Positions 28,859 to 51,933 of a DNA stretch of 64,000 bases are shown in pieces. Below the pieces are notes generated by a model. The model saw only the letters and a program-made list of their open reading frames with translations, made no database searches and was not told the origin of the DNA. Origin of the DNA: Mariniphaga anaerophila (GTDB taxonomy: Bacteria; Bacteroidota; Bacteroidia; Bacteroidales; Prolixibacteraceae); the NCBI RefSeq assembly GCF_900129025.1, contig NZ_FQUM01000002.1:248001-312000 (forward strand), in the 5' to 3' direction. The position numbers and the translations under genes were made by a program. The number at the start of each line of letters is the position of its first letter. Position 1 is the first letter of the stretch.

Positions 28859-31800
28859 TTACAATTCTACATCTACTTCTTTTTGGCCCGAAAACATTTG
28901 CAGAACACCGCTTGCATGGCGGTAATAGTGGCCGCGCAGGTCTTTTGAATATTCATTCAGAATCTGATTTCCAACGCCGTTAAAGTCGCCACATTTGTAT
29001 AACGCCCGTCCCAGAATCAGCTCCCGCAACGAGTTGTTTCGGGTTGAAACATCGTTTTTATGAGCAGGAGTTAATCGTTTTGCTGTTTTTATATCGGGCA
29101 TGGAATGCCCGCGAACGCCCGGCATTTCGAGAATTCTGAAAATTGGTTCAGCACCTCTGTGGTCGCCAATGGTTTCCAACGCAATGGCCACTGCCCTGAA
29201 ATGAGAGAAGTGGCTTTCTGGCGTTAGTTTTTCCATCAGGCGGATCACAGCGGGCAATACCTCTTTTCGTTTTGTCCTTCCTGCTGCAATAATCAGGCTG
29301 TCGAGGTAACTGATGCTGCGCCCGAACTGTCCCATTCCGGTGTAATTCCATCCTTCGTCCCAGTCGTCGTATTCATTCAGTGCGTCAATTAGTTCCTGCC
29401 ATCCCGTTGGTTCGCCCAACATTCCTAAAATACGCGCATAAACCAGTTTCTCCGCTTTGTTTTGTGTGAGGTGGAACTGGTCATTCAGCGCCGAAATTCC
29501 CCGTTCTTTATCCCAGAGTATGGTTTCCAGCCCGTCCAGATCGTTTACCACTGATTTTGCTGCCTGTTGAATTTTTTCGTACGAAGGCGGGTAATTGTCC
29601 ACATCGGTTAGCACATGCTCGGGCAGACTGCCGATTTTCACCAGCTCTTTCTGGAGCGCTTTAATATCGACGTAACGTATTTTTTTGTTATCCAGTTTTG
29701 CCCAGGCTGCGGCAATTCCCACTGCGTAACCCTGATTTTGCAGGCAGGGTTGCATGCGGATAACCGGCATGGCATCGCGGTGAGCGCTGGCACCCAGTCC
29801 GGTAACTGCTATTCCTTCGAGCCCTTTGGGAAGCAGCGACCTGAACGGAACAAAAGCCAGAACATCTACTCCGCTGTGAGCCGGAGGTTTTAGTGAGAAG
29901 AACGGGTCTTCGGTAAAACCGTGTGTGTCGAAAGAACTCAAGTGGGCAGAAATGGTGTCAGGATAAGTACGGCCGTTGTACACGTCGAGCACTCCCACCG
30001 TAAAATCGCCAATCATGCGACGGCGTTCGCGGGTTTGTGGTATTTTTCCAATATCGTATTGGTCTTTGAACTTGTCTTTTGCAACAACAAAAGCGCGCCA
30101 CACGTCCAGCAGGTCAGAATCGTCAATAAAGGTCCAGTCTGTGTTGTTGTAAAAGTCGTCCGGATTTTTGAACGGCAGCCCGGAACCCTGCATGGCAACA
30201 GAAAGCCCGTCGGCATAATGATATTGAGCACCTGCCGCAATGGCGATGTCTGCGCTTCCTGTGGAATCGATTACCGTGTGAGCCAGCACCACGCCTTTTC
30301 CTTCGGGAGTGGCTACTACCACGCCTTTAACCCGGCCGTTTTCGACATACGCGCCACTACCCAGTACACCAAACCAGATGTTTCCTCCGGCATTACGGAT
30401 TTCTTTTCTGAAGTATTCTGTTTTCCAGTCGAATACCCATGCTGCCAGCGACTCTTTTTTCCGCGGATTATCGGGCCCCATGTTTTTAACTCCGAGGTCA
30501 ACAATGTTGGTGTATCCTTCGCGGTATCCGTGGTAATATCGTCCAATCATTCCTAGGGTGCCCATACCACCCATGCCGTGCATGTAATCGAGCACCAGCG
30601 TTTTTGCACCCTGCTGTGCTGCTCCCACGGCAGCTGGTGCACCGGCAGTTCCGCCACCCATTACAACCACGTCGTATGTTCCCAGAACCGGCAGACTGGT
30701 TTCTTCTGCAACAACTTCTCCAATATTCATAGAAGGGCGCAATCCGTCCAGAATTTCACCAACATCTCCGGCAACGAGTTCGCCGCCGCTGATTCCTTTT
30801 ATTTTTGCGTTTTTTGGTATTTCAAGGGTATTTGCCAGCGTGGCAATTTCTTTTCCTATTCGTTCTCCAATCCTAATCATTTTTCCCGGCTGAAGCAGAG
30901 TTTCTGCCGCTTCGTTGCTTAGGTTGGCGCTTCCGCCCAACACAAACAGGTTATCCAGTTTACGGGGCAGGAAAACTTTCAGATTGATATTTTCAGCATC
31001 AACATTTTCGTTGTTCCATCTTTTCTGGCCTACGAGTTTGTCAGGCGGATTTTGGAAAAGCAAGTCGGCCGATTCTACCTGGTCGGCATCCCAGGTTAAA
31101 TCGCGCGCCACCTGTTCTGCCTCAGCAAAAGAGTCCCAGCTTCCGTCTTTCATATCTATCAGAATGGAATATTCGATGGCCTTGTAGCGGATGTCCGACT
31201 CGGAAAAACCACTTCCCTGCGTGGACCCGGTGGATGCAAATTTAATCTGAACCGGAGTTTTGTGAATCATTCCTGAGAGGCCGGGAGCTTCTTTCAGTTT
31301 ATTCCCGACTACCGTAAATTTAAAGTCCTGTTTCCCTGAAGGATAATTGCCAAACTGGGCGCCGGTCATCCGGGCAACCATAGCCCGCGGTGTGGCATCA
31401 ATAATTGTTTTGGCAATAACAGCCTGCCTGCCCGAACGGTTGGATATCACTACTCCGGCGGGCTGTCCGTTTTTGTCGCTTAGTACATCGGTTACATAGC
31501 TGGAGTACAGAAAATCGATATCGTTGTCGATTAGCGCATTGTCGAGTGTACGTTTTACGTGCATAGGCGTGGGAAGCCCGTTGCCGAATATCTCTTTGCC
31601 GAGTTTTGTATTGTAAATGCTCGTGTCGTCAGTCCACAGCCTGAACGTACCGCAAACATCTTCGCCCAAGTAGGGCTCCTGTGCTGCCAGGAATACTTTT
31701 GCACCGGCTTTTTTTGCTTCAACGGCAGCAGCCACCGCAGCCAATGAGCCGCCAATTACTACTACATCGACATTGTATGCTACCGGAATTTTTCGTTCTG

Positions 31801-31915
31801 ATTGGTAGCAGAATTTATTCCGCTCGTTCATGGATTTTCCAAAGGCAAATGCCCCGGGAGTCATAAAAAGGGCAGACCCGGCTGCCGTGGTTTTTATAAA
31901 ATTACGTCGTTTCAT
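28859..31915 (-). CDS. Tat-exported tandem FAD_oxidored flavoprotein with helical-repeat tail
   Basis: About 1018 aa from the ATG at 31915, which opens on a twin-arginine signal (MKRRNFIKTTAAGSALF); a longer start at 31945 adds ten residues. Positions here are from the longer form. The first FAD domain (about 57-380) has VVVIGGSLAAVAAAVEA and the second (about 424-780) VVVMGGGTAGAPAAVGAAQQ, each followed by a GG-rich loop. The last 240 residues are helical and HEAT-like (LVYARILGMLGE, RAVAIALETIGDHRGAEPIF). Both dinucleotide motifs are intact, so two FADs may bind. It closes the cluster and has a paralogue at 38580-41519. Substrate unknown; periplasmic oxidation or reduction of a sugar-like compound is inferred. 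Confidence 0.8.
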   Translation of the reverse strand: MKRRNFIKTTAAGSALFMTPGAFAFGKSMNERNKFCYQSERKIPVAYNVDVVVIGGSLAAVAAAVEAKKAGAKVFLAAQEPYLGEDVCGTFRLWTDDTSIYNTKLGKEIFGNGLPTPMHVKRTLDNALIDNDIDFLYSSYVTDVLSDKNGQPAGVVISNRSGRQAVIAKTIIDATPRAMVARMTGAQFGNYPSGKQDFKFTVVGNKLKEAPGLSGMIHKTPVQIKFASTGSTQGSGFSESDIRYKAIEYSILIDMKDGSWDSFAEAEQVARDLTWDADQVESADLLFQNPPDKLVGQKRWNNENVDAENINLKVFLPRKLDNLFVLGGSANLSNEAAETLLQPGKMIRIGERIGKEIATLANTLEIPKNAKIKGISGGELVAGDVGEILDGLRPSMNIGEVVAEETSLPVLGTYDVVVMGGGTAGAPAAVGAAQQGAKTLVLDYMHGMGGMGTLGMIGRYYHGYREGYTNIVDLGVKNMGPDNPRKKESLAAWVFDWKTEYFRKEIRNAGGNIWFGVLGSGAYVENGRVKGVVVATPEGKGVVLAHTVIDSTGSADIAIAAGAQYHYADGLSVAMQGSGLPFKNPDDFYNNTDWTFIDDSDLLDVWRAFVVAKDKFKDQYDIGKIPQTRERRRMIGDFTVGVLDVYNGRTYPDTISAHLSSFDTHGFTEDPFFSLKPPAHSGVDVLAFVPFRSLLPKGLEGIAVTGLGASAHRDAMPVIRMQPCLQNQGYAVGIAAAWAKLDNKKIRYVDIKALQKELVKIGSLPEHVLTDVDNYPPSYEKIQQAAKSVVNDLDGLETILWDKERGISALNDQFHLTQNKAEKLVYARILGMLGEPTGWQELIDALNEYDDWDEGWNYTGMGQFGRSISYLDSLIIAAGRTKRKEVLPAVIRLMEKLTPESHFSHFRAVAIALETIGDHRGAEPIFRILEMPGVRGHSMPDIKTAKRLTPAHKNDVSTRNNSLRELILGRALYKCGDFNGVGNQILNEYSKDLRGHYYRHASGVLQMFSGQKEVDVEL

Positions 31916-32020
31916 TTTATTGGTATTTTGTTTTCTACAATTCAATCATCGGGTGAGATGAGGGGAAAACAACACATTTATGGTAGTTCTTTTTTGCTGC
32001 TTCTGTCGTGGTAAATGCTA

Positions 32021-33712
32021 TTATTTTATGGCGTCTGCCATTGTGAGAACCTGCCCTTTTTCGAGCAGCAGTTTTTTCAGTTTTTCATATTCTACGTCCT
32101 GCACGGCAATTTTTTCGTCGATGGCCATGCAGGCGGCAACAGCAGCCGATTGTCCTAAAATCATAAACACGGGTTCCATGCGGATGGAGCCAAAAGCAAT
32201 GTGGCTGGCCGATGCACAGACAGGGACGAGCAGGTTTTTGCACTCCACTTTTTTGGGCACCAAAGATCCGTAAGCAATTTCGTACGGGCCGGGCAACCCA
32301 ACTCCGATATCGCCTTCGTTGTGCACGTGCCCTTCTTTAGTAACGTATCGTTGCACATTGTGCGAATCGATGGTGTACGAACCCATCCCAACTGATTCGG
32401 GGGTCGGGGTGCGTTTCAGTAATTCATTTTCGGTCATAATAAATTTGCCCTTCATCCTTCGGGCTTCGCGAATGTACAGTTGGTGCGGCCAGTGTCCGTT
32501 ATCAATGAACTCATCTTTTGGAAGACCCCATTTTTGCATTTCGGTTTGAATTTCTTCCGGCACCCGGGGATCGTTGGCCACAAACCACAGAAGTCCTTTT
32601 TGGTAGGTTTCATGTTCGTTGATGATCTCTTTCCGGCGTTCGTAGCTGGCTTCCGGGTAATCGTAGTTCATCCCGATGTTATCGCTACTAAACGGCCCGT
32701 GGTTGTTGGTATCGGTTTTCCGGTTGGGAATGATGTCGAATTTTTGGAACCACTCACGCCACCCGGCATCAAAAATGCGTACCAGCAACTCGTATTGAGT
32801 TGAATCGTACTTTTCGGGTTTTGGAAAAGGGATGCGGTTGTCGGGATGGTTGGTCATGCACACCCTGAAACAATAGGCCTGCACCCGGTGGTCTCCTTTT
32901 CCTTTTTCTCCCGGAGGATCGGGGCTGATGCGCGGAAGGAGTCCGCTGGAAGCATCTCCCGGAATCTTATACGGATCAACCGGTTTATCGAGCACCATAA
33001 AATGATGCCGGTGGTGATAAACTCCGGTCTGGATACCGTTCCATTCTTCGCCGTAAACGTCTGTCCCTTCGCGCCCTACGTGGTAACTAACACCGGCAGA
33101 TGCCATTAAATCGCCTTCGTAAGTGGCATCCATAAAAACTTTCCCCTCAAATTTTTTTCCTGAAAGGGTAGCAAAAGCAGTGATTCTTCCTTCGGATTTT
33201 TCCACGCCTGCTTCACGGTCGAGCCATTCATCCCGGAACAAACGAATGTTGTTTTCCCTCACCAGTTCTTCAAAAACCTGCTCGGCAATGTGCGGTTCAA
33301 ATATCCACATGGTGCGCATGTTGCCGTCTATCGCCGGAGTTCCCTGCCCGGTATTGCCATATTCTTCTTTTTTCATCCATTTCCATGCCTCTTGCTGCTG
33401 GTAATGGTTGTACACGCGGTGGTAAAAATTCCGGGCCAGTCCGCCAATGGTCTCTTTTTTTCCGGTGTCTGTCCAGCCCAATCCTCCGGCCGTGAGCCCG
33501 CCCAGGTGCGCGTCGGGAGAAACCATAATTACAGATTTGCCCGACTGTGCTACTTCCACGGCTGCAATAACAGCGGCAGAGGTGCCTCCGTAAATAACCA
33601 CGTCGGCTTTGTAAACATTAGGTTGTTTTTTGCACCCCGCAAACAGCACTGCCGAAAGAACAGCAGCGAAAATAGCGGTGTACAAATATCGGGTAATAGG
33701 TTTTGTTTTCAT
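32021..33712 (-). CDS. FAD_oxidored-family lipoprotein
   Basis: 563 aa. Lipoprotein signal with lipobox LFAGC (C27). The FAD-binding start is [19 protein letters not shown], followed by HLGGLTAGGLGWTDTG, the hallmark of PF12831 flavoproteins. Late motifs include [15 protein letters not shown]-like sequence and a C-terminal [20 protein letters not shown]. Membrane-tethered in the periplasm or on the cell surface. It is clearly paralogous to the next gene (33744-35453), sharing nearly all these blocks. Reaction unknown. Confidence 0.82.
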   Translation of the reverse strand: MKTKPITRYLYTAIFAAVLSAVLFAGCKKQPNVYKADVVIYGGTSAAVIAAVEVAQSGKSVIMVSPDAHLGGLTAGGLGWTDTGKKETIGGLARNFYHRVYNHYQQQEAWKWMKKEEYGNTGQGTPAIDGNMRTMWIFEPHIAEQVFEELVRENNIRLFRDEWLDREAGVEKSEGRITAFATLSGKKFEGKVFMDATYEGDLMASAGVSYHVGREGTDVYGEEWNGIQTGVYHHRHHFMVLDKPVDPYKIPGDASSGLLPRISPDPPGEKGKGDHRVQAYCFRVCMTNHPDNRIPFPKPEKYDSTQYELLVRIFDAGWREWFQKFDIIPNRKTDTNNHGPFSSDNIGMNYDYPEASYERRKEIINEHETYQKGLLWFVANDPRVPEEIQTEMQKWGLPKDEFIDNGHWPHQLYIREARRMKGKFIMTENELLKRTPTPESVGMGSYTIDSHNVQRYVTKEGHVHNEGDIGVGLPGPYEIAYGSLVPKKVECKNLLVPVCASASHIAFGSIRMEPVFMILGQSAAVAACMAIDEKIAVQDVEYEKLKKLLLEKGQVLTMADAIK

Positions 33713-33743
33713 TTTATTGGATTTGATAGTTGCTAAAATAGAT

Positions 33744-35453
33744 TTACGGATTGTGGGTGAGTATCTGTTTGTCTTTCAGTAATCTTTCTTTAAGTGAATT
33801 GTAATTTAAGGAATGCACGTCTGTTTTGTTTTCGATGGCCAAAACTGCGGCAGTTGCAGCCGATTGTCCTAAAATCATAAACACGGGTTCCATACGGATG
33901 GATCCAAACGCAATGTGAGTTGAACTTACACAAACCGGAATCAGCAGATTGTTGCACTCATCCTTTTTCGGAACGATTGACCGGTAGCTGATAGGGTAGG
34001 GCGAAAATCCATGTGCTTCTACATTGCCTTCGTTCTGAACAAAACCGTTGGCATCTACATACCGCTGCACCTGGTGCGAGTCCATTCCGTAGGCAGCCAG
34101 ACTTATGGGGTCGTCAACTACTTCAAGTCCCTCGCAGTTTTTTTGGGTCATCACATAATCGCTTATCATTCGCCTGGCTTCCCTGATGTAAAGCTGCTGT
34201 TGCCAGCCGTCTTTCCGTTCGTATTCGTCTTTACATGTTCCCCACTGCGAAACCACGTCTCTTACTTTTTCCGGAATACGCGGATGGTACGCAAGTGTCC
34301 ACATTAATCCCTGCTGATAACTGCGGTGGCGCTCTATAATTTCTTCCCGCTCGTCGTACCCGGCTTCCGGATAATCGTAATTTTGCCCGATGAAGTCGGT
34401 TGAAAAGCCTTTTTGGTTGTTGGTGTCCGTTTTTCGGTTAGGCATTTGTGAATTGATCCACGGCACAAGCGGATCGCCGTAACTGTACATCTCTTCAATC
34501 GGTCCGTCGGCAGCTTCGTAATTTCTGAAAAGGAGTTCGTACTCCAGCTCGTTGTAATTGGCCGGCTTTTTAAACGGGATGCGATTTTCGGGATGGTCAG
34601 TCAGCGTCATGCGAAAACAGTAGGCCTGAATTCCTTTATCGGCGTGCCCGTCAATTCCGGGGCCGCCCTCAACAATAAACGGAAGTAATCCGCTGGACGG
34701 GTCGCCTTTAACAATGTACGGATCAACGCCATCAATAAAATTGTGATGAACGCTGTTCATGGAAACGGTTCTTTTTAAGGTAATTCCGATGTCGTTTGCC
34801 TGAACGCCGTTCAGCGTTTCGCCGTATTCTTTGTTCGACTCGCGGCCGTATGTGTAAGTCACGCCCGAAGTTGCCATTAAATCACCTTCGTAAGTGGCAT
34901 CGATGAACATTTTTCCGCGGTATTTTTCTCCGCTTTCCATTTCAATTTCAACAATTTTTTGCCCTTGCTTTTTTACACCGGTTTTCCGGTTTAACCGTTG
35001 TTTGTATTCTACGTCAATTTCCTCGGCAGCCATCATCTGTTCGTAGACTTTCATTGCAGCCGACGGTTCAAATGTCCACATGGCATCTTCTTCTTTTCGG
35101 TTTCTGCTTTGCCGATACTCGTCCGGTTTTTGCCATTTCCAGTTCTCCGGATTTTCGTAATATTTTTTGATGTTTTGGTAGAACTCCCGGCTAATGCCGC
35201 CGATGGCCTGTTTGTTGCCAATGTCGGTTGCACCAAGGCCACCGGTTGTTAGCCCTCCTATACGCGAAGTTGGCTCAATTACCACTACCGATTTGCCCAT
35301 GCGCGAACTTTGGATAGCGGCGGCAATCCCGGCTGATGTTCCTCCGTAAATTACAATGTCGTATTCCTTTGTTTGCCCCTGGGCATCAAGCTGAAATACT
35401 GATGATGCAATGAATGCAAGAATAATAGTCAGGAAATTTTTAGTAGAAAACAT
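33744..35453 (-). CDS. Sec-exported FAD_oxidored-family flavoprotein
   Basis: 569 aa. Sec signal peptide (about 1-26) and the same architecture as 32021-33712: [15 protein letters not shown] (37-51), [33 protein letters not shown], and [20 protein letters not shown] near the C-terminus. The pair differs in anchoring (soluble here, lipidated there), which suggests different sites or partners rather than simple redundancy. 31 bases separate the two genes. It lies 16 bases after cstA. Confidence 0.82.
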
Positions 35454-35469
35454 AGCAATATTTTATTCG

Positions 35470-36906
35470 TTAATAATGGTCTTTTCTTTTTTCGTTTCTG
35501 AAATAAATAATGAAAAGCAGGAGTGAAATAAGAGTTATTCCGAACCCGACGGTGTACGAAATTGCTTTTGAAAGATGAAATCCTTCTGGAGCAAGGAACA
35601 GGTAGGTTGAAATAACCGATGTCATGAATAACGCAGGGAGGAGCGTGATCCAAAAGTTTTTCCGGTATTTTACCAGGAAGACGGTGATTGTCCAAAGGAC
35701 CACGGTTGCCAGTGTTTGGTTCGACCAGGCGAAATAACGCCAGATAACATCGAAGTTTATTTGCGTGAGGAAAAAACCAATGGCAAACAACGGAATACTA
35801 ATGAAAAGCCGGTTTTTTAGCGGCCCCTGTTTCAGGTTGAGAAAGTCGGCCACAATTAGCCTTGCGCTGCGAAAAGCCGTGTCGCCCGAAGTAATGGGGG
35901 CAGCTACCACACCAAGAATAGCCAGAAAAGCCCCGAATTTACCCAGTAAAACGTTGGCTGTTTCGTTAACAACCCAGGCTGCATTTCCCTGGTGTTCGTT
36001 CATTACATCGTTCAACTCGCGTATTCCACCAAAAAAACTCATGCTAATGGTTGCCCAAATCATCGCTACCACAGCTTCGGTAATCATTGCGCCGTAAAAC
36101 ACCCGCCGTCCCAGTTTTTCGTTTTTTATGCACCGGGCCATCAGCGGCGACTGTGTTGCATGAAATCCGGAAATGGCACCACAGGCAATTGTGATAAACA
36201 GCATGGGAAAAATGGGAAACTCATCGGCGCTGCTGTGGAAGTTTTTTAAACTGTCGGTTGTGAGTTCAGGAACAGGATATCCTTTTACAAACAGTGCAAT
36301 TATTAATCCTACGGCCATAAATAAAAGTGCAAACCCAAAAACCGGGTAGATGCGTCCGATTACTTTATTAATAGGAAGCAGTGTGGAAAGCACGTAATAC
36401 GCAAAAACTATCCAAACCCAAAAAGTCATGCTGGCAAAATCGGGCGTTAGTCCAGCCAGAATTTTAGCCGGTCCCATAATAAATACCGCGCCAACAATAA
36501 CCATAAGCAGCACAGTAAAACCGCGCATAATTTGTTTGGTAGCACTTCCCAGATAAATACCTGTGATTTCTGTAATGCTGAGTCCGTTGTGTTTAATGGA
36601 AAGCATTCCGGAAAAATAGTCGTGGACCGCACCGGCAAACACCGATCCCAGGATAATCCACAGGTATGCAACCGGCCCCCACATGGCTCCGGCCACCGCT
36701 CCGAAAATGGGTCCGAGCCCGGCGATGTTTAAAAACTGGATAAGGAAAATTTTCCACCATGGCATGGGAATATAGTCCACACCGTCAGTCATGGTAACTG
36801 CCGGCGTTGCCCGGCTTGCATCGGCACCAAAAACGCGTTCGATGTATTTGGAATAGACAAGGTATCCAACTACTAAAATGAATAAAGAGATGATTAAAGT
36901 ATACAT
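35470..36906 (-). CDS. cstA: CstA-family membrane transporter
   Basis: About 478 aa from the ATG at 36906 (MYTLIISLFILVVGYL); a start ten codons upstream is less likely. Twelve or more hydrophobic helices. MPWWKIFLIQFLNIAGLGPI and FAGAVHDYFSGMLSIKHNG are CstA signatures. The C-terminal region (VIWRYFAWSNQTLATV) is also typical. CstA-type proteins carry peptides or pyruvate in other bacteria. Placed between flavoprotein and sulfatase genes, it probably imports a product of the cluster; which one is unknown. Confidence 0.88.
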   Translation of the reverse strand: MYTLIISLFILVVGYLVYSKYIERVFGADASRATPAVTMTDGVDYIPMPWWKIFLIQFLNIAGLGPIFGAVAGAMWGPVAYLWIILGSVFAGAVHDYFSGMLSIKHNGLSITEITGIYLGSATKQIMRGFTVLLMVIVGAVFIMGPAKILAGLTPDFASMTFWVWIVFAYYVLSTLLPINKVIGRIYPVFGFALLFMAVGLIIALFVKGYPVPELTTDSLKNFHSSADEFPIFPMLFITIACGAISGFHATQSPLMARCIKNEKLGRRVFYGAMITEAVVAMIWATISMSFFGGIRELNDVMNEHQGNAAWVVNETANVLLGKFGAFLAILGVVAAPITSGDTAFRSARLIVADFLNLKQGPLKNRLFISIPLFAIGFFLTQINFDVIWRYFAWSNQTLATVVLWTITVFLVKYRKNFWITLLPALFMTSVISTYLFLAPEGFHLSKAISYTVGFGITLISLLLFIIYFRNEKRKDHY

Positions 36907-37011
36907 GTTTTTAAGAAAATTATTGTTTAAAATCAATGGTTTTCTAAACTACGATTTTCTGTTGAAAACGATACTCTTTCTTTTGATGAAATGTTTAGCA
37001 TAAGTTCTTTA

Positions 37012-38451: not shown

Positions 38452-38579
38452 CTCATTAAAATTGTACGTTTTCAAATGTATTTATCTCAAAAGTGCTCGA
38501 TAGAGTTCGCAAGCTCATTTCGATGGAACTCCCATGATTTTAATTATGCTTGTTTGTGAACCAAAGCTACATGGTTGTT

Positions 38580-41519: not shown

Positions 41520-41540
41520 ATATTTTATCTGATTATTTTG

Positions 41541-43046: not shown

Positions 43047-43084
43047 ATTGAATTAGCGTCAGTTTCTTTTTAAATGATATATCC

Positions 43085-44884
43085 TTAATCAATTCGGGTA
43101 AGTAACATCAGGCGAAAATCCATCACCTGGGAGCCGGGTATCTCCAGCGCTTTTAATATCAGGGTTCCTCTCCCTTTTGAGAGTTCGATATTGCCGAGCG
43201 TTGTTTGTTTGAAATCTTTTACATATGATTCTATTCGCGGAAAACGGTCGTACTCCATTCCTGTTAATGGCGGGTCGTGTGCTTCTACTATTTTGGCAGT
43301 AAGTCTATTGTCGTTAAAACTTAACTCAATGGTTGACCCCACGTCGGCCGTCGGGCAGGTATAAAACAATTCTACTTTATAAGTTCCGGTTTTGCCAATT
43401 TCGCAGTTCCATGTAATAGAGTCGTCAATACTCGTCCAATTATTGAAAAACGAGTCGTTGGGATAATGGTTGGACCGTTTTATATTCCCGTGTTCAAATC
43501 CGTCGCGGGCAGGTATTTGCGTGTGTTTTGCGTCGGGATGCCCAATAACGAACGGCCGTTTATCAAATTTTTTTCCGAATTTTTCGAGCATGTTTTTTCT
43601 GAAATCATCAGCAGTTTTCTGTAAGGTTTTAGTGAGCTCCGGTTTCAGGTTATTTATTGCTTTGGTTTGTCCCGGGTCATTATTCATATCATAGAGGTTG
43701 CCCGAATAATCCAGTCGATATTGCTGTGTTCGCACAGAAAGACGATTGTTCCAGTGTTGCACCAGTATTCGATCTTCCCAAATGTCATCATTTTCATACA
43801 GTAGGGGTGTCAGGCTAATTCCATCTAAAGGTTTGTTGTTGGCAATTTTAATTCCTGCCATGTCGGCCAAAGTGGGCATTAAATCCATTGCAGAACATAT
43901 TTGCGGAATTTTAGTACCCGCTTCAATACCTGCTGGCCAACAGATAAACAATGGAGAACGTACACCCCCTTCATCGGTTGAGCCTTTTATTCCACGCATT
44001 CCACCGTTCCATCGATTGCCATTTGGACCATTGTCACTAAAATACACTACGATTGTATTATTCGCCAGTTTAAGTTCATCAAGTTTAGCGAGTAGACGCC
44101 CCACATTCCAGTCAATATTTTCGCACATAGCAAGTGCTGCACGCGTGTGGTTATCATCATTTCCTTTCGGGATTTTTACTTCCTCAAACTTATTCCACCA
44201 ACGATCAGGAACCTGCATGGGTGAGTGTGGAGTGTTGAAAGGCAAGTAAATAAAGAAAGGTTCATGTTTGTGTTTTTCAATATAATTAAGGGCTTGTTCT
44301 GTAAAGTCGTCGATAATAAACCCATTGCCCTGGGTTATCTGCCCGTTGTGTTCGAGCATAGGACTGAAGTAGTTTCCCCAGTGCCCCGAACAAAATCCGT
44401 AAAATTCGTCAAACCCGCGGGCGTTAGGATGATACGGGTATTGCATGCCACTGTGCCATTTTCCGAATGCTGCTGTTCTGTATCCGGCACGTTTGAAAAC
44501 TTCGGAAATCAATTTTTCATCAGCGTTAATACGTTCTCCTCCGGCAGACGTGCTGTACACTCCGCAGCGGAGGTGATGCCGTCCGGTCAGAAATTCAGCC
44601 CGCGTTGGAGAGCACACCGGACTTACAAAAAAGCGGTTAAAACTAACGCCACTACGCGCCAGGTTGTCGATGTTGGGCGTGTGCAATGCTGTATTTCCAT
44701 TAATACTGAGATCGCCCCAGCCCTGATCATCAGCCAAAATAACGATGATATTCGGACGGTCGGTCGTCTTTCCTGCCAGAGTTGTTGACGCAAAAGAACT
44801 CTTCATAATGGCCACTTCCAACAGGCATATAATCGAAATTAATAGTCTTTTCACGCTGATTCCCTTCTTTTGTAGTTTAGACAA
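43085..44884 (-). CDS. Sulfatase (S1 family, CxPxR type) with C-terminal beta-sandwich
   Basis: 599 aa. An N-terminal hydrophobic segment (about 12-33) is a signal peptide. The catalytic domain runs to about 460, with NIIVILADDQGWGD (metal ligands), VCSPTRAEFLTGR (C91 in C-x-P-x-R), GKWHSG, and FSDNGPNGNRW. The last 140 residues (SITWNCEIGKTGTYKVELFY, GSTIELSFNDN) form a separate beta-sandwich like the DUF5077/CBM-type modules of Bacteroidota enzymes and may bind glycan. First gene after the hairpin that follows susD. Confidence 0.88.
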   Translation of the reverse strand: MSKLQKKGISVKRLLISIICLLEVAIMKSSFASTTLAGKTTDRPNIIVILADDQGWGDLSINGNTALHTPNIDNLARSGVSFNRFFVSPVCSPTRAEFLTGRHHLRCGVYSTSAGGERINADEKLISEVFKRAGYRTAAFGKWHSGMQYPYHPNARGFDEFYGFCSGHWGNYFSPMLEHNGQITQGNGFIIDDFTEQALNYIEKHKHEPFFIYLPFNTPHSPMQVPDRWWNKFEEVKIPKGNDDNHTRAALAMCENIDWNVGRLLAKLDELKLANNTIVVYFSDNGPNGNRWNGGMRGIKGSTDEGGVRSPLFICWPAGIEAGTKIPQICSAMDLMPTLADMAGIKIANNKPLDGISLTPLLYENDDIWEDRILVQHWNNRLSVRTQQYRLDYSGNLYDMNNDPGQTKAINNLKPELTKTLQKTADDFRKNMLEKFGKKFDKRPFVIGHPDAKHTQIPARDGFEHGNIKRSNHYPNDSFFNNWTSIDDSITWNCEIGKTGTYKVELFYTCPTADVGSTIELSFNDNRLTAKIVEAHDPPLTGMEYDRFPRIESYVKDFKQTTLGNIELSKGRGTLILKALEIPGSQVMDFRLMLLTRID

Positions 44885-45222: not shown

Positions 45223-45238
45223 ATCTAACTACACTAAA

Positions 45239-46690
45239 CTAATAACCTGGATTTTGATCTGCCTGGTTTATGGCAGGATTGTTATTAATTTCGTTTTCAG
45301 GAATAGGCCACAACAAGCGTTCGTTAAGAACATTTCTGCCTGCTTTGGCATATATTTCCTGTACTTTTCCAATTCGTTTAACATCAAACCATCTTCTTCT
45401 TTCAATCATAAATTCATATGCTCTTTCCTGAATTACAGCATCTCTGAATTCAATTTGACTCATACCTGATTGATAATCAACAGGAGACGGTGATGTAGGG
45501 TCATATCCGTAAGCTCTTCTTTTTATCATGTTCAGCCTTTCCAAAGCCAGGTCAGAAGGACTTCCTTCTGCCATACATGAAGCTTCTGCGTAAAAGAGGA
45601 ATGCTTCTGTGAACCGGTAAATTGGCACAGTAAATACTCTAAGCCCGTCGGTATTTGTGATAAATTTTTTGAATAGCACCGGCGCAGTAGAAGGCAATGA
45701 AATCCATTCTCCTTCGTCATTCTGATACTCTGTATAAAGGTTAAAACTTTTCCTGAAGTCGTTGTCGTCCCATGCCTTGCCAATCCAGGTCGTTGTGTCC
45801 GGAACCCATCCGAAGTAACCGCTTGTGCTATAGTTCCACGGCGGATTATTAGCCCTGTGAAGATACGTTGGAATGCTAGAACTCCTTGTGTCTGAATGAT
45901 GATTTGAGAAGATGTCTTCAGAACTGGTTTCAGTAGCAAAAATTTTGTAAAAATCATTGGGCTCATCTACGGTTACTAAAGCAAAGGGGCCGCTGTTTAT
46001 AACTTCATTCGCTTTACTTGCAGCCTTTTCCCATTCGCCGATTGTTAGATAAACGTGGGAGAGCAACATTTTAGCAGCCCATTTAGATGCTCGTCCGGTT
46101 TGTGCTCCTACTTCTCCCAGCCCGCTTTCTGCAGTTGTACAATCTGCGATTATCAAATCGTATACATCGCTTTCTGAAGCTCTGGGTGCTTCAACAGTAT
46201 TTAAATCAATTGTTTCAGTCAATTTAATAGGAACAGGTCCCCATCCTCGCACCAGTTCGAAATAGCACAGGGCTCTAAGAAAATGCGCTTCTGCAATGAT
46301 TTTGCTTTGAGTATCCGGATTAATATCCTCTATTTGAGGAACGTTATCCAGCACCGCATTTGCCCTGTTAATTGCACTATATAAAGTAGACCAGTTGGAA
46401 GCGCACCTGCCAATATTTGTTTGATCTAAAACCTGATTCCAAATAGTAATTGGCGCTTGTGACCCCCTGCCATTTAAAAAATCGCCATGTAATTCTACCA
46501 TCAGGTAATAAGTAATGCCAAAGAAATCTGTTTGCAGCCCGCTATATGCTCCTGCTATTGCTCCTTCGGCATCAGACTCGTTTTGGTAATAATTGGTTTT
46601 TGAAACAAAACTTTTGGGGACCTCATCCAGCATGTTTTCACATGCAGATAAGAATATGATTGTTAAAAGAAATAGTGTTGTCTTTTTCAT
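45239..46690 (-). CDS. SusD-family surface glycan-binding lipoprotein
   Basis: 483 aa. Lipobox LSAC (C16). Tetratricopeptide-like helical start (SDAEGAIAGAYSGLQTDFFG), middle HFLRALCYFELVRGWGPVPI and the C-terminal block ERAYEFMIERRRWFDVKRI, NERLLWPIPENEINNNP are RagB/SusD signatures. It works as the lid of the SusC channel and binds the incoming substrate. It lies 18 bases after susC and is followed by a terminator hairpin. Confidence 0.95.
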   Translation of the reverse strand: MKKTTLFLLTIIFLSACENMLDEVPKSFVSKTNYYQNESDAEGAIAGAYSGLQTDFFGITYYLMVELHGDFLNGRGSQAPITIWNQVLDQTNIGRCASNWSTLYSAINRANAVLDNVPQIEDINPDTQSKIIAEAHFLRALCYFELVRGWGPVPIKLTETIDLNTVEAPRASESDVYDLIIADCTTAESGLGEVGAQTGRASKWAAKMLLSHVYLTIGEWEKAASKANEVINSGPFALVTVDEPNDFYKIFATETSSEDIFSNHHSDTRSSSIPTYLHRANNPPWNYSTSGYFGWVPDTTTWIGKAWDDNDFRKSFNLYTEYQNDEGEWISLPSTAPVLFKKFITNTDGLRVFTVPIYRFTEAFLFYAEASCMAEGSPSDLALERLNMIKRRAYGYDPTSPSPVDYQSGMSQIEFRDAVIQERAYEFMIERRRWFDVKRIGKVQEIYAKAGRNVLNERLLWPIPENEINNNPAINQADQNPGY

Positions 46691-46708
46691 AATTGTTTTT
46701 CTTTAGGG

Positions 46709-49700
46709 TTAGAAACTAAGTTTTAAACCAATGGCATATACTTTTGCATTGGGATAACCATTCTGGTCAATTCCCATCCATAAACGGTTTGCTACATTAC
46801 CACTGTCAGAACCCCTGGTGTTTACCTCAGGGTCAAGTCCCGAGTATTTAGTGATAGTAAAAAGGTTTGTTCCCGATACGTACAGTTGTGCAGCGTCGAA
46901 AAATCCCATTCCCATAGCAGTAACCGGGAGGTTATAAGCGAATCTGAGTGATTTCAATCTCAGGTAGCTTCCGTCTTCAATAAAGCGTTCAGACGCAGTG
47001 ACCTGTGTTGCAGCACTGATTTTTGGATATTTGGCATTCGGGTCAGGATTCTCTTCTGTCCAGTAGTTGCCGATAATATCTTTAAACTGGTTATTCCCGC
47101 GTTGGAATGAATTCAGGTTTGTACCTTTTGTTGCATTGAAAATTTGGTTTCCGTAAACTCCTTCCAGAATAATGTTTAGTTCGAGATTTTTATACTTGAA
47201 ATCTGAAGTGAAACCGTAGATGAAATCAGGATAATAACTTCCGAGAATAACCCTGTCTAACGCGTTGATAACACCGTCCGGTTCTCCGTCAGGCCCGCTA
47301 ATGTCCTGATATTTGATGAAACCGTTTTCATCTAAGCCATCTTCAAGTAGTCCGTAAAAAGCACCCAACGGTTCACCAACGCGGGCAATATTTGTGCTCG
47401 GCCAGGCAGCTCCCTGTTCGGCACCAAAAATGTCGCTGTCTCCGGCAATTTTAATAACCTTGTTTCTGTTGGCAGATATTTGAGCTGAGGCAATCCATTT
47501 AAATTCTCGTTGAAGTACGTCAGCATTCACACTAAACTCGATTCCCTGGTTTTGAATTTCTCCCAGATTTTGCAGAATTGAACCAAATCCAACCGATGGA
47601 GGCAGCGGAACTGATGCCAGAAGATCTTTGGTGTTTTTCTTATAATAATCGAAAACAAATCGTAATCTGTTATTTACGATGTTCAGGTCAAATCCAACAT
47701 CTAACTGCCCGGTGGACTCCCATTTTAGATTGCTGTTGGAAATACCTGTTGGAACAAAACCAATTACGTCGGCCTGGTTTGCATAAATGTATTTAACAGA
47801 AGATAACCGGTTTAACGATTGGTAAGCACTCAGTGCTGTATTTCCGGTAACACCGTAGCTAAATCTCAGTTTCAAACTGTTTATTGCAGTAACATCCTGC
47901 ATAAAAGATTCTTCTGAAATACGCCAGGCGAGTGCCGCCGAAGGAAAGTATCCCCACTTGTGGTCGGCTCCAAAGCGTGATGATCCGTCCGCCCTGATGC
48001 TCGCAGTTACCATGTATTTATCCCTGTATGAGTAATTGGCCCTTCCGAGAAACGATGCCAGAGTCCATTCTGAAAAACTGGAACCGGGGTTCCCGATATT
48101 TTCAGCAGCACTAAGATCATAATTTTCTGTAGTATTGTTGGCGAAACCATTAACACTTATAGATGAGCTGCGATACATACTAGTCTGGTATGTGTATCCC
48201 CCGACTACATTCAGGTTATGAATATCATTGAATTTTTTTATGTAGCTCAGTGTATTTTCGTTAAGAAATGAGTTGGAGTACGAATTGCTTACGGAAGCAG
48301 AGCCTCTATCGCTGGAGTAAATTATTGGGGTGAAGTTATCTCCCAGACCATAAGAATACTGGACACCCAACAGCGTTCTGAACGATAGCTCAGGGGTGAA
48401 TTTGATATTAAACGTTCCATTTCCCAAAACACTGTTAGAGAAGCTACGGCTTTTATTGGCTGCATATACCATTGGGTTTCTCATATCGGCAGAGCCAAAG
48501 TTGTATTCCTGTTCAATCTGATATGGTAATCCATCTTCGTCATAAACAGGTAAAGTTGGAGGAGCTGATGCTGCTGACGATAATAAACCCTGCCCACGAT
48601 ATCCGTTATCTGAATATACAGAGAATCTTTCACGTCTGGATAATTGCATGTTAACTCCCATGGTTAGCCAGTTGTTCATTTCGTGGTCGAGGTTGATTCT
48701 TGCAGAGCCTCTTTTTACGCCTGAATTTAGCAAAATTCCCTCCTGGTCGTAATAGTTCCCCGAGACAGAATATTGTGTTTTCTCTGAACTTCCTGTAAAA
48801 GTTATTGTATGGTTGTGAAGCGGAGCAGTTCTGAATACCACGTCCTGCCAGTCGGTGCCCGGGTTTTGTACCTGGTCTACATTGAAGTACTGTTCTAATC
48901 CCTGATTTTTAAGCCATTCGTTGGCAATTACAGCGTATTCTTTTGCGTTCAAAACATCGAACCTGTTAACTTCCTGTTGCATTCCGAGAAAGCTGTTCAC
49001 CTCTATTTTGCTTTTTTGCCCTTGTCTGCCTCTTTTTGAGGTGATAATTACAACTCCGTTGGCACCTCTTGAACCGTAAATTGCAGTAGCAGAAGCATCT
49101 TTTAGTATGTCAACAGATTCTATGTCGGACGGATTTAGAAAGTCAATACCTCCTGTAACGGGAAATCCGTCGACTACATAAAGTGGTTGGTTGTCGCCAA
49201 TCATGGAGTTTCCCCCCCGAATTCTTACTTCAATTCTTCCTCCCGGGATCCCTGAGTTTTGGGTGACCCGTATTCCTGCAGCACCTACTTTCAGTGCTTG
49301 TTCCATGTTGTACACAGGAACAGATTCCAGGGTTTCTGATTTTACCTGGGCAACAGAGCCGGTTAGGTCAGATTTTTTCATCGTACCGTATCCAACAGCA
49401 ACAACTTCTTCAATTCCAATCACATCTTGCTGCATAACAACATTAATCGTTGAATTGCCGTTAACACTAACTTCCTGTGTGTGCATACCAATGAATGAGA
49501 AAACCAGAATCGCATTGTCGGGAATACTGGATAAGCTGTATTCTCCGTCCATGTTGGTTACTGTTCCTGTTGATGTCCCTTTGATAATTACCGTTACTCC
49601 CGGCAGAGGATTATTGTCGAGATCTGTTGCTTTTCCTTGCACCGAATTTGATTGCTGGCTTTCTGCCGGAATGATTACAATGAGGTTGTTCTCTGCAATT

Positions 49701-50026
49701 TTGTATGAAACCTTAGAGGTATCGAAAAGGCGATCCATAATCTCGAAAATTGTTTCGTTTTCGATATCAAATCCGACTTTTCGTTTCATATCCACAAAGT
49801 CTTCGTTGTAAAAAAAACGAAATTCGCTTTGGTTTTCAATGTCCCAAAGAACCTCTTTAACTGATTTATTCCGTGAATCAATAGACAGGCGCGTTTGTGA
49901 ATACGCGCTGGCAAATGATTGTAACACCAGGAACACAGATAGAAATAATGTTAGTTTAGTCATAAGCAAGATCTTTTTAACGTCTCGTTTACAAGGAAGA
50001 GACAATCCCTTCAAATTTTTTTTCAT
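46709..50026 (-). CDS. SusC-family TonB-dependent receptor with STN signalling domain
   Basis: 1105 aa. Signal region to about residue 44, then an STN/Secretin-TonB domain (about 48-118; LSIDSRNKSVKEVLWDIE), carboxypeptidase-regulatory domain (about 130-205), SusC signature block (VAVGYGTMKKSDLTGSVAQV), plug with SVDILKDASATAIYGSRGAN, and a barrel ending AKVYAIGLKLSF. The STN domain marks a transducer that passes substrate occupancy to the FecR anti-sigma factor encoded just upstream. Together with SusD it imports the target oligosaccharide or glycoside. Confidence 0.95.
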   Translation of the reverse strand: MKKNLKGLSLPCKRDVKKILLMTKLTLFLSVFLVLQSFASAYSQTRLSIDSRNKSVKEVLWDIENQSEFRFFYNEDFVDMKRKVGFDIENETIFEIMDRLFDTSKVSYKIAENNLIVIIPAESQQSNSVQGKATDLDNNPLPGVTVIIKGTSTGTVTNMDGEYSLSSIPDNAILVFSFIGMHTQEVSVNGNSTINVVMQQDVIGIEEVVAVGYGTMKKSDLTGSVAQVKSETLESVPVYNMEQALKVGAAGIRVTQNSGIPGGRIEVRIRGGNSMIGDNQPLYVVDGFPVTGGIDFLNPSDIESVDILKDASATAIYGSRGANGVVIITSKRGRQGQKSKIEVNSFLGMQQEVNRFDVLNAKEYAVIANEWLKNQGLEQYFNVDQVQNPGTDWQDVVFRTAPLHNHTITFTGSSEKTQYSVSGNYYDQEGILLNSGVKRGSARINLDHEMNNWLTMGVNMQLSRRERFSVYSDNGYRGQGLLSSAASAPPTLPVYDEDGLPYQIEQEYNFGSADMRNPMVYAANKSRSFSNSVLGNGTFNIKFTPELSFRTLLGVQYSYGLGDNFTPIIYSSDRGSASVSNSYSNSFLNENTLSYIKKFNDIHNLNVVGGYTYQTSMYRSSSISVNGFANNTTENYDLSAAENIGNPGSSFSEWTLASFLGRANYSYRDKYMVTASIRADGSSRFGADHKWGYFPSAALAWRISEESFMQDVTAINSLKLRFSYGVTGNTALSAYQSLNRLSSVKYIYANQADVIGFVPTGISNSNLKWESTGQLDVGFDLNIVNNRLRFVFDYYKKNTKDLLASVPLPPSVGFGSILQNLGEIQNQGIEFSVNADVLQREFKWIASAQISANRNKVIKIAGDSDIFGAEQGAAWPSTNIARVGEPLGAFYGLLEDGLDENGFIKYQDISGPDGEPDGVINALDRVILGSYYPDFIYGFTSDFKYKNLELNIILEGVYGNQIFNATKGTNLNSFQRGNNQFKDIIGNYWTEENPDPNAKYPKISAATQVTASERFIEDGSYLRLKSLRFAYNLPVTAMGMGFFDAAQLYVSGTNLFTITKYSGLDPEVNTRGSDSGNVANRLWMGIDQNGYPNAKVYAIGLKLSF

Positions 50027-50053
50027 ACTTTTGAATCGTTAAGGTTGAAAATG

Positions 50054-50083
50054 TGTTGCATATACTGCCAATATGATGCAACA
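50054..50083. promoter_or_regulatory. Inverted repeat upstream of susC
   Basis: TGTTGCAT (50054-50061) and ATGCAACA (50076-50083) are perfect 8-bp arms with a 14-base spacer, about 28-57 bases before the susC ATG. The position fits an operator or a site overlapping an ECF promoter. Confidence 0.4.
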
Positions 50084-50145
50084 TGAATTAACACGAGATT
50101 TTTGGGAGGTCTTTCTGGATCTCCCATTTTTTTGGTTTGATGTTT

Positions 50146-51261
50146 TTATTTCATAAGCAAGTGATTAAATTTCTCCATTTTTTGTTTGTCAGGCATTATA
50201 TAAACTGTTTTTCCCTCAATTATATAGTTTATGGGAGAACTGGCTCGAATCGCATTCAGAACCTGTTCAAGCGTTTCATCCTCAAGTGTGCCACCAAATG
50301 AATAGTCTTTTAACAGTTCGTTGTCAAAAATGAAATTTACTGCATATCTGCGTTCCAGTTTTTTTGAAAGTGCTCCCAGCTTTTCATTGTTAATTATCCA
50401 TCTTTCATCTTTCCACGAGATAATTGGAGAGGGATCAATTGACGTGACAATTTTAAATTCAGACTTGAGTTTCTGAGTAGTAGCACTTGCCATTGCCGAT
50501 TTCTTATTCGTGTCAATTAGATCTATATCTTGATCGTGTTTCGTATATACTGCTTTTTCTTGTGCGGTAAGAATCACATCTTCTTTTAGTTTGAACGTAT
50601 TCCCTTCCAGCTTTACCGAGCCTTCAACTAATGTTGTTTCAATGGTTTTTTCTTCGGCATAAGCTTTTACGTTAAATTGGGTGCCAAGTGCGGTAATATT
50701 AATGTCGCTTGTTTTTACAGTAAACGGAATATCGGGATTTTTCGCAATCTCGAAAAAAGCTTCTCCGGAAAGGTTAACTTCCCGGTTCTCTTCCCCAAAA
50801 TTATTTTCATAAGCCAGCGTTGTTCCTGCATTCAGCCATATTTTGCTTCCATCAGGCATTTTTACGAATGAACGCGACCCCAGTGGCGCAACGTATTCAA
50901 CAAGAAGAGGAGATTTTGTTGGTTCCGGCTTATTGTTAAAAAAGTAGTGCCCGGTGCCTCCTAAAAGAAAAGCCAGAATGAAAATGGCTGCCATTTTTAT
51001 CCATTCGGGGAATACTATTCTTTTGGTGGTGGTGTCGACGGATTTTGATTGCAATTTTTGCTGTAATCTTCGCCACGCATCATTTGTAGCGTCAGAAGAT
51101 GCCTGTGAGGACTGGTTGTCAGATATATACTTTTTGAATGAACAAAGATTTTTTTCTGACGAATTTATCCAGTCAATCAATATCGATTCCTGATCTTCTG
51201 TTAGTTTCCCATGAAGATACAGATGAAACAACTGTTGTTTATCAAGTTCGTCGTAGTTCAT
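50146..51261 (-). CDS. FecR-family anti-sigma factor
   Basis: About 371 aa from the ATG at 51261 (MNYDELDKQQLFHLYLHGKL); a longer frame starts at 51288. A cytoplasmic N-terminal part precedes one membrane helix (about 98-116 of the longer form; MAAIFILAFLLGGTGHYFF), then the FecR domain (VEYVAPLGSRSFVKMPDGSKIWLNAGT, VNLSGEAFFEIAKNPDIPFTV) and a C-terminal STN-like segment (YSFGGTLEDETLEQVLNAI) that meets the SusC STN domain. It holds the ECF sigma factor until SusC signals substrate. Immediately downstream of the sigma gene. Confidence 0.93.
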   Translation of the reverse strand: MNYDELDKQQLFHLYLHGKLTEDQESILIDWINSSEKNLCSFKKYISDNQSSQASSDATNDAWRRLQQKLQSKSVDTTTKRIVFPEWIKMAAIFILAFLLGGTGHYFFNNKPEPTKSPLLVEYVAPLGSRSFVKMPDGSKIWLNAGTTLAYENNFGEENREVNLSGEAFFEIAKNPDIPFTVKTSDINITALGTQFNVKAYAEEKTIETTLVEGSVKLEGNTFKLKEDVILTAQEKAVYTKHDQDIDLIDTNKKSAMASATTQKLKSEFKIVTSIDPSPIISWKDERWIINNEKLGALSKKLERRYAVNFIFDNELLKDYSFGGTLEDETLEQVLNAIRASSPINYIIEGKTVYIMPDKQKMEKFNHLLMK

Positions 51262-51324
51262 ATTATTGGTTTCTGTATAGTAATACAATTGAGGGTGAAA
51301 ATACCGCCCCCCTTTATTAAAAAA

Positions 51325-51933
51325 TTAGAGTCCTTTCATCAGTGAGAATAAAGTAACAACCAGAAGATATGCAGAAGCAAAGTGTGTTTTGAATTGCCGT
51401 AATGCTTTTGTATTGTGCTTTTCGACTGTTCTTAAAGTGATATTTAGTTTTTCTGCAATCTCTTTGTTTTTTAATCCATCGAAACGCGAGAGTTGAAAAA
51501 CTTTTCTGGTTTGTTCCGGCAATTGATTCATAACCGTTTCAATCTCTTTCTGAATTTCATTGTAGATTGTCAGCGAATGAGGATCATCAAAAAAGTCTGC
51601 GTAGTAAAGCATTTCTCCTTTAGTCGTTTTCCATGTTTCAATGCTGTGCCCGTTTACTATTTTTTGATGTTTAATGTGGTTAATGCAGGAATTACGGACA
51701 AGAGTAAATAAATAGGATTGAAAAGTGTCTGCTTTTATTTCGTTCCGCTTTTCCCAGATTTTCAGAAATGCTTCCTGAATAATATCTTCCACTTCAGTTT
51801 TGTCTGCTATAAATTTACCGGCAAAAGCCATCAGACGAGGAAAATATGCTTTGAAAACAAATTCAAACATTTTTTCATCGTCAAATAATAATTTATTTTC
51901 GATATATCTCCTATCTACAACTTTTGTCATCAA
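51325..51933 (-). CDS. ECF-type RNA polymerase sigma factor of a SusCD locus
   Basis: 202 aa. Sigma region 2 (FEFVFKAYFPRLMAFAGKFI, EVEDIIQEAFLKIWEKR) and region 4 (QLPEQTRKVFQLSRFDGLKNKEIAEKLNI...VEKHNTKALRQFK) with a C-terminal hydrophobic end. It is paired with the FecR protein and would direct transcription of susC onward. It is transcribed divergently from fucI. Confidence 0.94.
   Translation of the reverse strand: MMTKVVDRRYIENKLLFDDEKMFEFVFKAYFPRLMAFAGKFIADKTEVEDIIQEAFLKIWEKRNEIKADTFQSYLFTLVRNSCINHIKHQKIVNGHSIETWKTTKGEMLYYADFFDDPHSLTIYNEIQKEIETVMNQLPEQTRKVFQLSRFDGLKNKEIAEKLNITLRTVEKHNTKALRQFKTHFASAYLLVVTLFSLMKGL

Follow-up and report, generated by a model that had tools for sequence, protein, structure and literature searches.

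Gene content of the operon

Within the window, that is, the whole stretch of 64,000 nucleotides analysed, twelve genes on the minus strand between positions 28859 and 51933 form one operon, and each lies where the initial annotation had placed it. Intergenic gaps range from 16 to 119 bp, apart from the one that separates SusD from sulfatase A, which measures 354 bp. A sigma factor, a FecR protein, SusC and SusD, two sulfatases, five FAD_oxidored proteins and a CstA transporter had been read on this single strand, and all were confirmed with Pfam or NCBIfam models. The features are as follows, all leaders being read by eye:

51325..51933, minus strand: ECF-type sigma factor (PF08281, PF04542)
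50146..51288, minus strand: FecR anti-sigma factor (PF04773, PF16344)
46709..50026, minus strand: SusC/RagA TonB-dependent importer (TIGR04056, E 1.7e-265)
45239..46690, minus strand: SusD lipoprotein (PF07980, PF14322)
43085..44884, minus strand: sulfatase A, accessory (PF00884, motif CSPTR)
41541..43046, minus strand: F501, FAD_oxidored flavoprotein (PF12831, E 2e-87; twin-arginine-like leader)
38580..41519, minus strand: FF979, FF1028 paralogue with tandem FAD_oxidored domains (PF12831; Sec-like leader)
37012..38475, minus strand: sulfatase B, accessory (PF00884, PF14707, motif CSASR; lipoprotein-like leader)
35470..36936, minus strand: CstA-family carrier (PF02554, E 2.1e-63, 215.4 bits, cut-off 27)
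33744..35453, minus strand: F569, FAD_oxidored flavoprotein, core (PF12831, E 2.1e-115; AF2 mean pLDDT 85.4, searched with Foldseek; Sec-like leader)
32021..33712, minus strand: F563, FAD_oxidored flavoprotein, core (PF12831, E 8.7e-111; lipoprotein-like leader)
28859..31945, minus strand: FF1028, two FAD-type domains, core (PF12831; AF2 mean pLDDT 87.5; twin-arginine-like leader)
28796..28835, minus strand: terminator-like hairpin of 17 pairs at the operon end, directly 3' of the FF1028 stop
52173..53999, plus strand: L-fucose isomerase, divergent neighbour, circumstantial (PF07881, PF07882, PF02952)
54070..55386, plus strand: DUF6786 protein adjoining the fucose isomerase (PF20583)

Terminator-like sites numbered 31, against a mean of 21.2 in shuffled sequences, and among them the long 17-pair hairpin alone is persuasive. 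The DUF6786 protein has a 47% identical relative within another SusCD locus, of the F569 type (L103).

The operon resembles the SusCD PULs of Bacteroidota in its SusC, its SusD, its sigma/FecR control and its export-type leaders, and the SusC and SusD genes are adjacent, as expected of a PUL. It differs from them in that no GH, PL or CE family was detected by Pfam in the ten proteins from SusC to FF1028 (E<=0.001), so that the CAZyme also expected of a PUL was not found; recurrent PF12831 flavoproteins and CstA are present instead.

The flavoproteins

All five flavoproteins matched PF12831 strongly (E 1.1e-60 to 2.1e-115; 206.6 to 386.8 bits for a cut-off of 27). F563 and F569 share 47% identity, and FF979 matches FF1028 across residues 258-1015 at 41% identity. 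The two domains of FF1028 are homologous (hhalign probability 99.1), and its C-terminus is helical and HEAT-like. The second domain has a canonical FAD motif, and F569 and F563 have a GGT variant. In the first domain of FF1028-type proteins, the third glycine of the motif is replaced by S or T in 56/56 aligned rows (FF979 included), and where the second domain has E or D (56/56 rows), at least 55 of 56 first domains carry A, G, S, C or T. Judging from this alignment, the first domain may bind FAD abnormally. The count of seven FAD domains proposed initially therefore stands as a count of domains, two of which have altered motifs (in FF979, presumably).

The five proteins had also been described as exported. 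Leaders of export type were read by eye on all five, and the core proteins F569, F563 and FF1028 are most likely exported. A loose twin-arginine pattern was found in 52 of the 56 aligned FF1028-type N-termini, which would be fitting for export of a folded cofactor enzyme.

Search for a hidden hydrolase or lyase fold

Among the solved chains listed as matches to F569, FF1028 and the F569/F563 profile, none extended beyond the nucleotide-binding region of the flavoprotein part. For the structural models, no hidden glycoside hydrolase or lyase fold was found: the best 50 of 970 Foldseek matches for F569, and the best 50 of 817 for FF1028, were all flavoproteins (E<=0.001). Together with the Pfam search, this bears out, for the ten proteins and the two models, the proposal that the locus has no recognisable glycoside hydrolase or lyase.

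Flavocytochrome c3, fumarate reductases and urocanate reductase are among the Foldseek neighbours of the two models. A rival reading would make the flavoproteins respiratory reductases of the periplasm, with imported organic compounds serving as electron acceptors. However, the matches are partial, since the TM-score by query length is at most 0.30 for F569 and 0.20 for FF1028 in the best 50 of each. Moreover, secreted flavin reductases of the urocanate reductase type have a heme- or FMN-carrying electron-entry domain, whereas no FMN_bind, heme or iron-sulfur Pfam match was obtained in the twelve operon proteins. We consider a respiratory role very improbable.

Other FAD enzymes were also compared. 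GMC-type glycoside 3-oxidases and pyranose 2-oxidases are described as FAD enzymes oxidising glycosides (PMC10646112). A bacterial pyranose 2-oxidase structure, 7qva, ranks 48 among the FF1028 matches, but full-length similarity to either type is absent among the Foldseek matches listed, and none of the ten proteins from SusC to FF1028 has a GMC Pfam match (E<=0.001).

Conservation of the flavoprotein core

A search for FF1028 relatives gave 77 loci, of which 56 were scored and 21 dropped because they spanned less than 11 kb or lacked a strong FF hit; the window itself and the loci from the FF1028/FF979 paralogue search are outside this set. An operon was defined here by a common strand and gaps below 400 bp, and F-type genes by a match to the F569/F563 profile at E<=1e-40, a class that may include more distant relatives. 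Two of the loci (L010 and L017) are copies in a single genome, Mariniphaga sediminis, and are counted twice.

F-type genes were present in 29 of the 56 operons, SusC in 26, CstA in 15 and a sulfatase in 2. F-type and SusC genes occurred together in 23, so that the flavoproteins are linked to SusCD operons, as had been supposed. Of the 15 operons with CstA, 14 belong to the 30 close relatives; CstA is recurrent in the close clade. A search for the same gene set in other genomes had been suggested as a check: its core parts do recur, and SusC, SusD, F-type, CstA and FF1028 are all found together in 7/56 (L011, L012, L016, L018, L031, L036, L047). In L012, L016, L018 and L031, the genes from SusC to the last one encode SusCD, flavoproteins and CstA only. 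Since the core parts recur across many genomes, the gene content of the operon is not due to chance. FF1028 is nevertheless not bound to one single system, because 27/56 relatives have no F-type partner in the operon and 30/56 no SusC, some stretches being cut by contig ends. Elsewhere, a CstA-F563 pair is adjacent with no SusC or SusD beside it (L112). F501, FF979 and the two sulfatases look like lineage-specific additions.

Sulfatases are accessory

S1 sulfatases are characterised by the formylglycine motif C-x-P/A-x-R, and both sulfatases of the operon have it (CSPTR in A, CSASR in B). In a PDB sequence search, the top-scoring solved chains for sulfatase A include proteins named iota-carrageenan, S1_19 and S1_16 sulfatases, and those for sulfatase B are arylsulfatase A and N-acetylgalactosamine-6-sulfatase.

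Desulfation had been proposed as half of the chemistry of the locus, and this was not supported. As stated above, related operons seldom carry a sulfatase, and even anywhere on the fetched stretch one was found for only 5/56. The operon of the nearest SusCD relative, L011 (SusC 67%, SusD 68%), is free of them. The idea that sulfatases define the chemistry is thus rejected, and we regard those of the window as accessory. In L048, a sulfatase-like gene (40%) directly follows the FF1028 relative, beyond the 400-bp operon limit.

It could still be argued that this is an ordinary sulfated-glycan locus, with backbone hydrolases encoded elsewhere and flavoproteins that merely trim or modify side groups. 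The genome has 48 sulfatase-domain matches, several top solved relatives of sulfatase A are carrageenan sulfatases by name, and relatives of the flavoproteins cluster with GH106, GH78 and GH2 genes (see below). The four operons that keep the flavoprotein core with neither sulfatase nor hydrolase argue against it, and we find this explanation unlikely.

Neighbours of the flavoprotein relatives

F563 relatives were found between GH2 and GH106 (L101), and in a same-strand run with a Gfo/Idh gene and one for a HEAT/3-keto-disaccharide-hydrolase protein, PF06439 (L100). F-type genes are clustered with GH2 (L113) and GH78 (L117), and FF1028 relatives adjoin a GH141-type protein (L019) and GH36 (L030). 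The carbohydrate-linked loci, and the neighbours scanned singly, were chosen by us. Because of the clusters with GH106, GH78, GH2 and GH141-type genes, these flavoproteins are probably carbohydrate-active and capable of acting alongside hydrolases. The system had been called non-hydrolytic; this reading is weakened by the surroundings of the relatives, and for the window operon hydrolases could be encoded elsewhere in the genome.

In the scans of neighbours, many unrelated families appeared with one or two members apiece. They covered 141 unassigned operon neighbours (gaps below 250 bp), of which 109 were aligned and 104 scanned in two sets (54 + 50, with 75 and 73 families, the 25 most frequent of each being listed), and 42 neighbours of F-type genes, of which 36 were aligned and scanned (25 of 59 families listed). 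The large gene adjoining F569-type genes in L102 and L103 has no Pfam match.

One observation does not fit a sugar substrate: a tryptophanase-type (beta-eliminating) lyase is encoded two genes ahead of the FF relatives in L061 and L064. The substrate might then be an amino-acid, peptide or aromatic conjugate oxidised by the flavoproteins, with CstA importing pyruvate- or peptide-like products. A peptide role is known in the CstA family, and an NCBIfam equivalog model of this family is named pyruvate/proton symporter. The window CstA is not that equivalog, as it scores 109.3 bits where the model demands 1188, and several Pfam-named neighbours of the flavoproteins, among the families listed and in loci that we chose, are carbohydrate enzymes. 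A non-carbohydrate substrate seems improbable to us.

The 3-keto-glycoside pathway involves a Gfo/Idh dehydrogenase, a PF06439 3-keto-disaccharide hydrolase and AP_endonuc_2 proteins. In the genome of the window, 29 PF06439 domain matches exceed the cut-off, and one operon of this genome (L087) reads SusC, SusD, tandem PF06439, Gfo/Idh, AP_endonuc_2 and FAD_oxidored, SusC and SusD being assigned by leader and gene order and the rest by Pfam. L100 is a further likeness. In contrast, Pfam detected none of these three components in the window operon, and no clear genome-wide proximity was seen: for 40 FAD clusters in seven related genomes, PF06439 lay within 5, 10 and 15 kb of PF12831 in 3, 3 and 4 cases, for 1.49, 2.78 and 4.03 expected by chance (second tandem PF06439 domains and half-matches of tandem flavoproteins being left out). 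Physical linkage of the two families was thus not confirmed as a general pattern.

A possible oxidative route for sugar conjugates

Our preferred reading, advanced tentatively and at somewhat less than even probability, is that the operon serves for SusCD uptake and that the PF12831 flavoproteins F569, F563 and FF1028, as its catalytic core, would oxidise a sugar conjugate outside the cytosol, with CstA as the carrier. Sigma factor and FecR would turn the operon on via SusC. Through SusCD a small conjugate of a sugar, or an oligosaccharide, would enter; in this strain it is probably sulfated and may contain fucose, and sulfatases A and B would strip the sulfate. The adjoining L-fucose isomerase gene is circumstantial evidence for this reading. 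F569 and F563 would then oxidise sugar hydroxyl groups, so that a bond becomes labile or a sugar acid or keto sugar results. FF1028 would work on the intermediate that follows, and CstA would carry the product, a small acid, across to the cytosol.

A bolder variant, which we consider distinctly unlikely, is redox-neutral cleavage of glycosides by the core flavoproteins, which would form a novel class of exported FAD enzymes: a hydride would pass from the sugar to the flavin, elimination would break the bond and the hydride would go back from that flavin, with no need of an outside electron acceptor. It would account for the absence of a recognisable electron carrier in the operon and, if true, would make the operon a complete non-hydrolytic utilisation system. 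The flavin lyase BbuA offers a chemical precedent for redox-neutral, flavin-dependent elimination but is acyl-CoA dehydrogenase-like and acts on a CoA thioester (PMC8364193).

Because its core parts recur in many related bacteria, the flavoprotein core of the preferred reading may mark an oxidative dismantling route for sugar conjugates. Such operons could reveal a route in Bacteroidota that is missed by hydrolase-based predictions. Full-text searches of open-licence PMC articles listed no work describing flavoproteins of this kind within SusCD loci, and the recurrent SusCD-flavoprotein-CstA operon provides a testable context for these orphan proteins. The host genome is that of a marine-type Bacteroidota, and the operon enzymes are mostly uncharacterised flavoproteins.

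Operon layout and domain structure of the flavoproteins

The locus is a SusCD-type variant whose core of uncharacterised flavoproteins recurs in other genomes. All twelve genes listed in the initial annotation were present in one operon of this 5.05 Mb genome:

51933 down to 28859, minus strand: sigma, FecR, SusC, SusD, sulfatase A, F501, FF979, sulfatase B, CstA, F569, F563, FF1028

F501, F569 and F563 are single FAD_oxidored (PF12831) flavoproteins, FF979 and FF1028 are tandem two-domain ones, and CstA is a PF02554 carrier. Intergenic spacing was 16–119 bp, with a single exception of 354 bp after SusD, and a terminator-like hairpin of 17 pairs lies directly after FF1028. The claimed absence of a recognisable glycoside hydrolase or lyase held in a Pfam scan covering the ten gene products between SusC and FF1028, both included, whose matches (E≤0.001) contained no GH, PL or CE family.

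AlphaFold2 models of F569 and FF1028 had mean pLDDT values of 85.4 and 87.5. The 50 Foldseek matches listed for each were flavoproteins throughout; among these, TM-scores normalised by query length did not exceed 0.30 (F569) and 0.20 (FF1028). When F569, FF1028 and an F569/F563 profile were compared with PDB sequences, the nucleotide-binding part was matched, and matches elsewhere were weak or due to chance. The first PDB match of FF1028 was an artificial helical-repeat protein (residues 842–939, E 7.1e-05); its C-terminal end is a HEAT-like region, helical in the model too.

Seven FAD domains had been annotated. There are seven FAD-type domains, but two, the first domains of the tandem proteins, have altered motifs. 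An hhalign comparison shows domains 1 and 2 of FF1028 to be homologous, with a probability of 99.1 over 305 columns. Domain 2 kept G-G/A-G and E or D in 56/56 aligned FF1028-type rows; in domain 1 the third glycine was replaced by S or T in all 56, and the acid position of domain 2 held A, G, S, C or T in 55 (one row was not printed). Judged by these motifs, both first domains may not bind FAD in the usual way. The changes are not decisive, since F569 and F563 also deviate (GGT where GGG is expected and, among the rows listed, no acid in F563).

Conservation of the flavoprotein core

FF1028 was scanned against 84,980 species genomes (the collection's own description). This gave 77 loci with FF1028 relatives, 72 with Bacteroidota-type names and five in MAGs named Clostridia-type or Limnochordia; ORFs were called and compared with the window. 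Scoring covered 56 loci whose fetched stretch was 11 kb or longer, 30 close (FF1028 relative at least 58% identical) and 26 more distant. In the operon (same strand, gaps under 400 bp), close loci had SusC in 11 cases, SusD in 13, F569/F563-type flavoproteins (F-type, profile E≤1e-40) in 16, CstA in 14 and a sulfatase in 1; for distant loci the counts were 15, 15, 13, 1 and 1. Anywhere on the fetched stretch, a sulfatase was found in 3 of the 30 and 2 of the 26.

Seven of the 56 loci (L011, L012, L016, L018, L031, L036, L047) combine FF1028, SusC, SusD, F-type and CstA. From SusC to the last operon gene, all ORFs of at least 100 aa in L012, L016, L018 and L031 were, by best window match, of SusCD, flavoprotein or CstA kinds; L016 has sigma and FecR upstream in addition, and the region upstream of SusC in L012 lies beyond the fetched stretch. 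L036 also encodes a 945-aa protein, two small proteins and a 154-aa protein; a Pfam scan of the first three gave no match. Downstream in L047 are an AP_endonuc_2 protein, a sulfatase and an AXE1 esterase. The SusCD pair nearest to that of the window is in L011 (67 and 68%), where the FF979 relative is 62% identical and a 362-aa protein had no Pfam match; comparison of its called ORFs with the window gave no sulfatase in the operon.

The flavoprotein core thus recurs with SusCD and CstA in other genomes, but the sulfatases are mostly missing. Because they are rare in FF1028-type operons and absent from that of L011, the window sulfatases are, from gene content, best seen as additions, perhaps serving a sulfated form of the substrate.

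Of the order, 295 genomes were covered, with that of the window counted in; 25 gave a strong match of F569/F563 type (E≤1e-120) and 7 an FF1028 match (E≤1e-60). Two Mariniphaga sediminis contigs (L010, L017) share an identical map, sigma-FecR-SusC-SusD-F569-F563-FF1028. In L112 (G072:C36:17500-37000), CstA adjoins an F563 relative with neither SusC nor SusD beside the pair, although a SusC fragment lies at the opposite end of the fetched region; as the pair stands without them, the two may act together as one working unit.

Possible mode of action

SusCD would take up a sugar conjugate, the flavoproteins, probably exported, would oxidise it, and a small product would enter via CstA. A loose twin-arginine pattern was found in 52/56 aligned FF1028-type N-termini, which fits export together with the cofactor; the four others include FF979 and its L011 relative. 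Pfam matches of the window operon included no cytochrome, quinone or iron-sulfur partner, so that either an external electron acceptor or a redox-neutral cycle would be required. BbuA is a flavin enzyme that cleaves bonds without net redox change (PMC8364193), and flavin glycoside 3-oxidases prepare a bond for cleavage (PMC10646112); both belong to families other than those of the window flavoproteins. The original observation, a SusCD-flavoprotein-sulfatase operon without a recognisable hydrolase or lyase, is confirmed. Its interpretation, desulfation plus flavin redox chemistry, has partial support; the sulfatases look like additions, and a non-hydrolytic system, although possible, is unproven.

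Carbohydrate-related neighbours

L-fucose isomerase and a DUF6786 gene are divergent neighbours of the window operon:

52173–58611, plus strand: L-fucose isomerase, DUF6786, GntR-type regulator, PD40 protein, HAD hydrolase

None of the five genes was recognised by Pfam as coding for a fucose kinase, aldolase or permease. A DUF6786 relative is present in an F569-type SusCD locus (L103). In hand-picked cases, which are not a census, F-type relatives lie near GH2 and GH106 (L101), a SASA esterase (L102), GH2 and a heparinase-type protein (L113), GH78 (L117), or Gfo/Idh, a HEAT and PF06439 (3-keto-disaccharide hydrolase) protein and a GDSL esterase (L100); FF1028 relatives adjoin a GH141-type protein (L019) and GH36 (L030). 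Wider neighbour scans gave numerous families with one or two members in each. A conjugate of fucose or rhamnose is a reasonable guess at the substrate, but only a guess.

The PF06439 protein of L100 (10885–14298, minus strand, 1137 aa, HEAT repeats and two such domains) shares a same-strand run with Gfo/Idh and the F563 relative. In L061 (6766–8256, plus strand) and L064 (6752–8242, plus strand) a beta-eliminating lyase of tryptophanase type is followed by an alpha-galactosidase-type gene and the FF1028 relative; L053 also carries a gene from this lyase cluster. A DUF4434 protein lies near FAD_oxidored proteins in L062 (15056–16162) and L090 (9460–10512), assigned by single Pfam scans, and in L081 (15066–16166), assigned by member count and similarity.

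In the window's genome, 29 domain matches to PF06439 exceed the cut-off, and one of its loci appears from its genes to be of 3-keto-glycoside type with a flavoprotein:

L087 (G000:C25:174000-192000), 378–13546: SusC-like, SusD-like, tandem PF06439, Gfo/Idh, AP_endonuc_2, FAD_oxidored and a carrier-like gene in a row

In L092, of the same genome, Gfo/Idh, AP_endonuc_2 and a FAD_oxidored protein lie near sulfatases. These two gene sets suggested a role of PF12831 enzymes in keto-sugar chemistry. For 40 FAD clusters in seven genomes, PF06439 was observed within 5 kb in 3 cases versus 1.5 expected, within 10 kb in 3 versus 2.8, and within 15 kb in 4 versus 4.0. These counts do not support a general linkage; the lead may apply to single loci only.

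Near the L092 cluster, one sulfatase gene (G000:C44:284977-285959, minus strand; L092:6645-8050) lies in two overlapping reading frames, possibly a frameshift.
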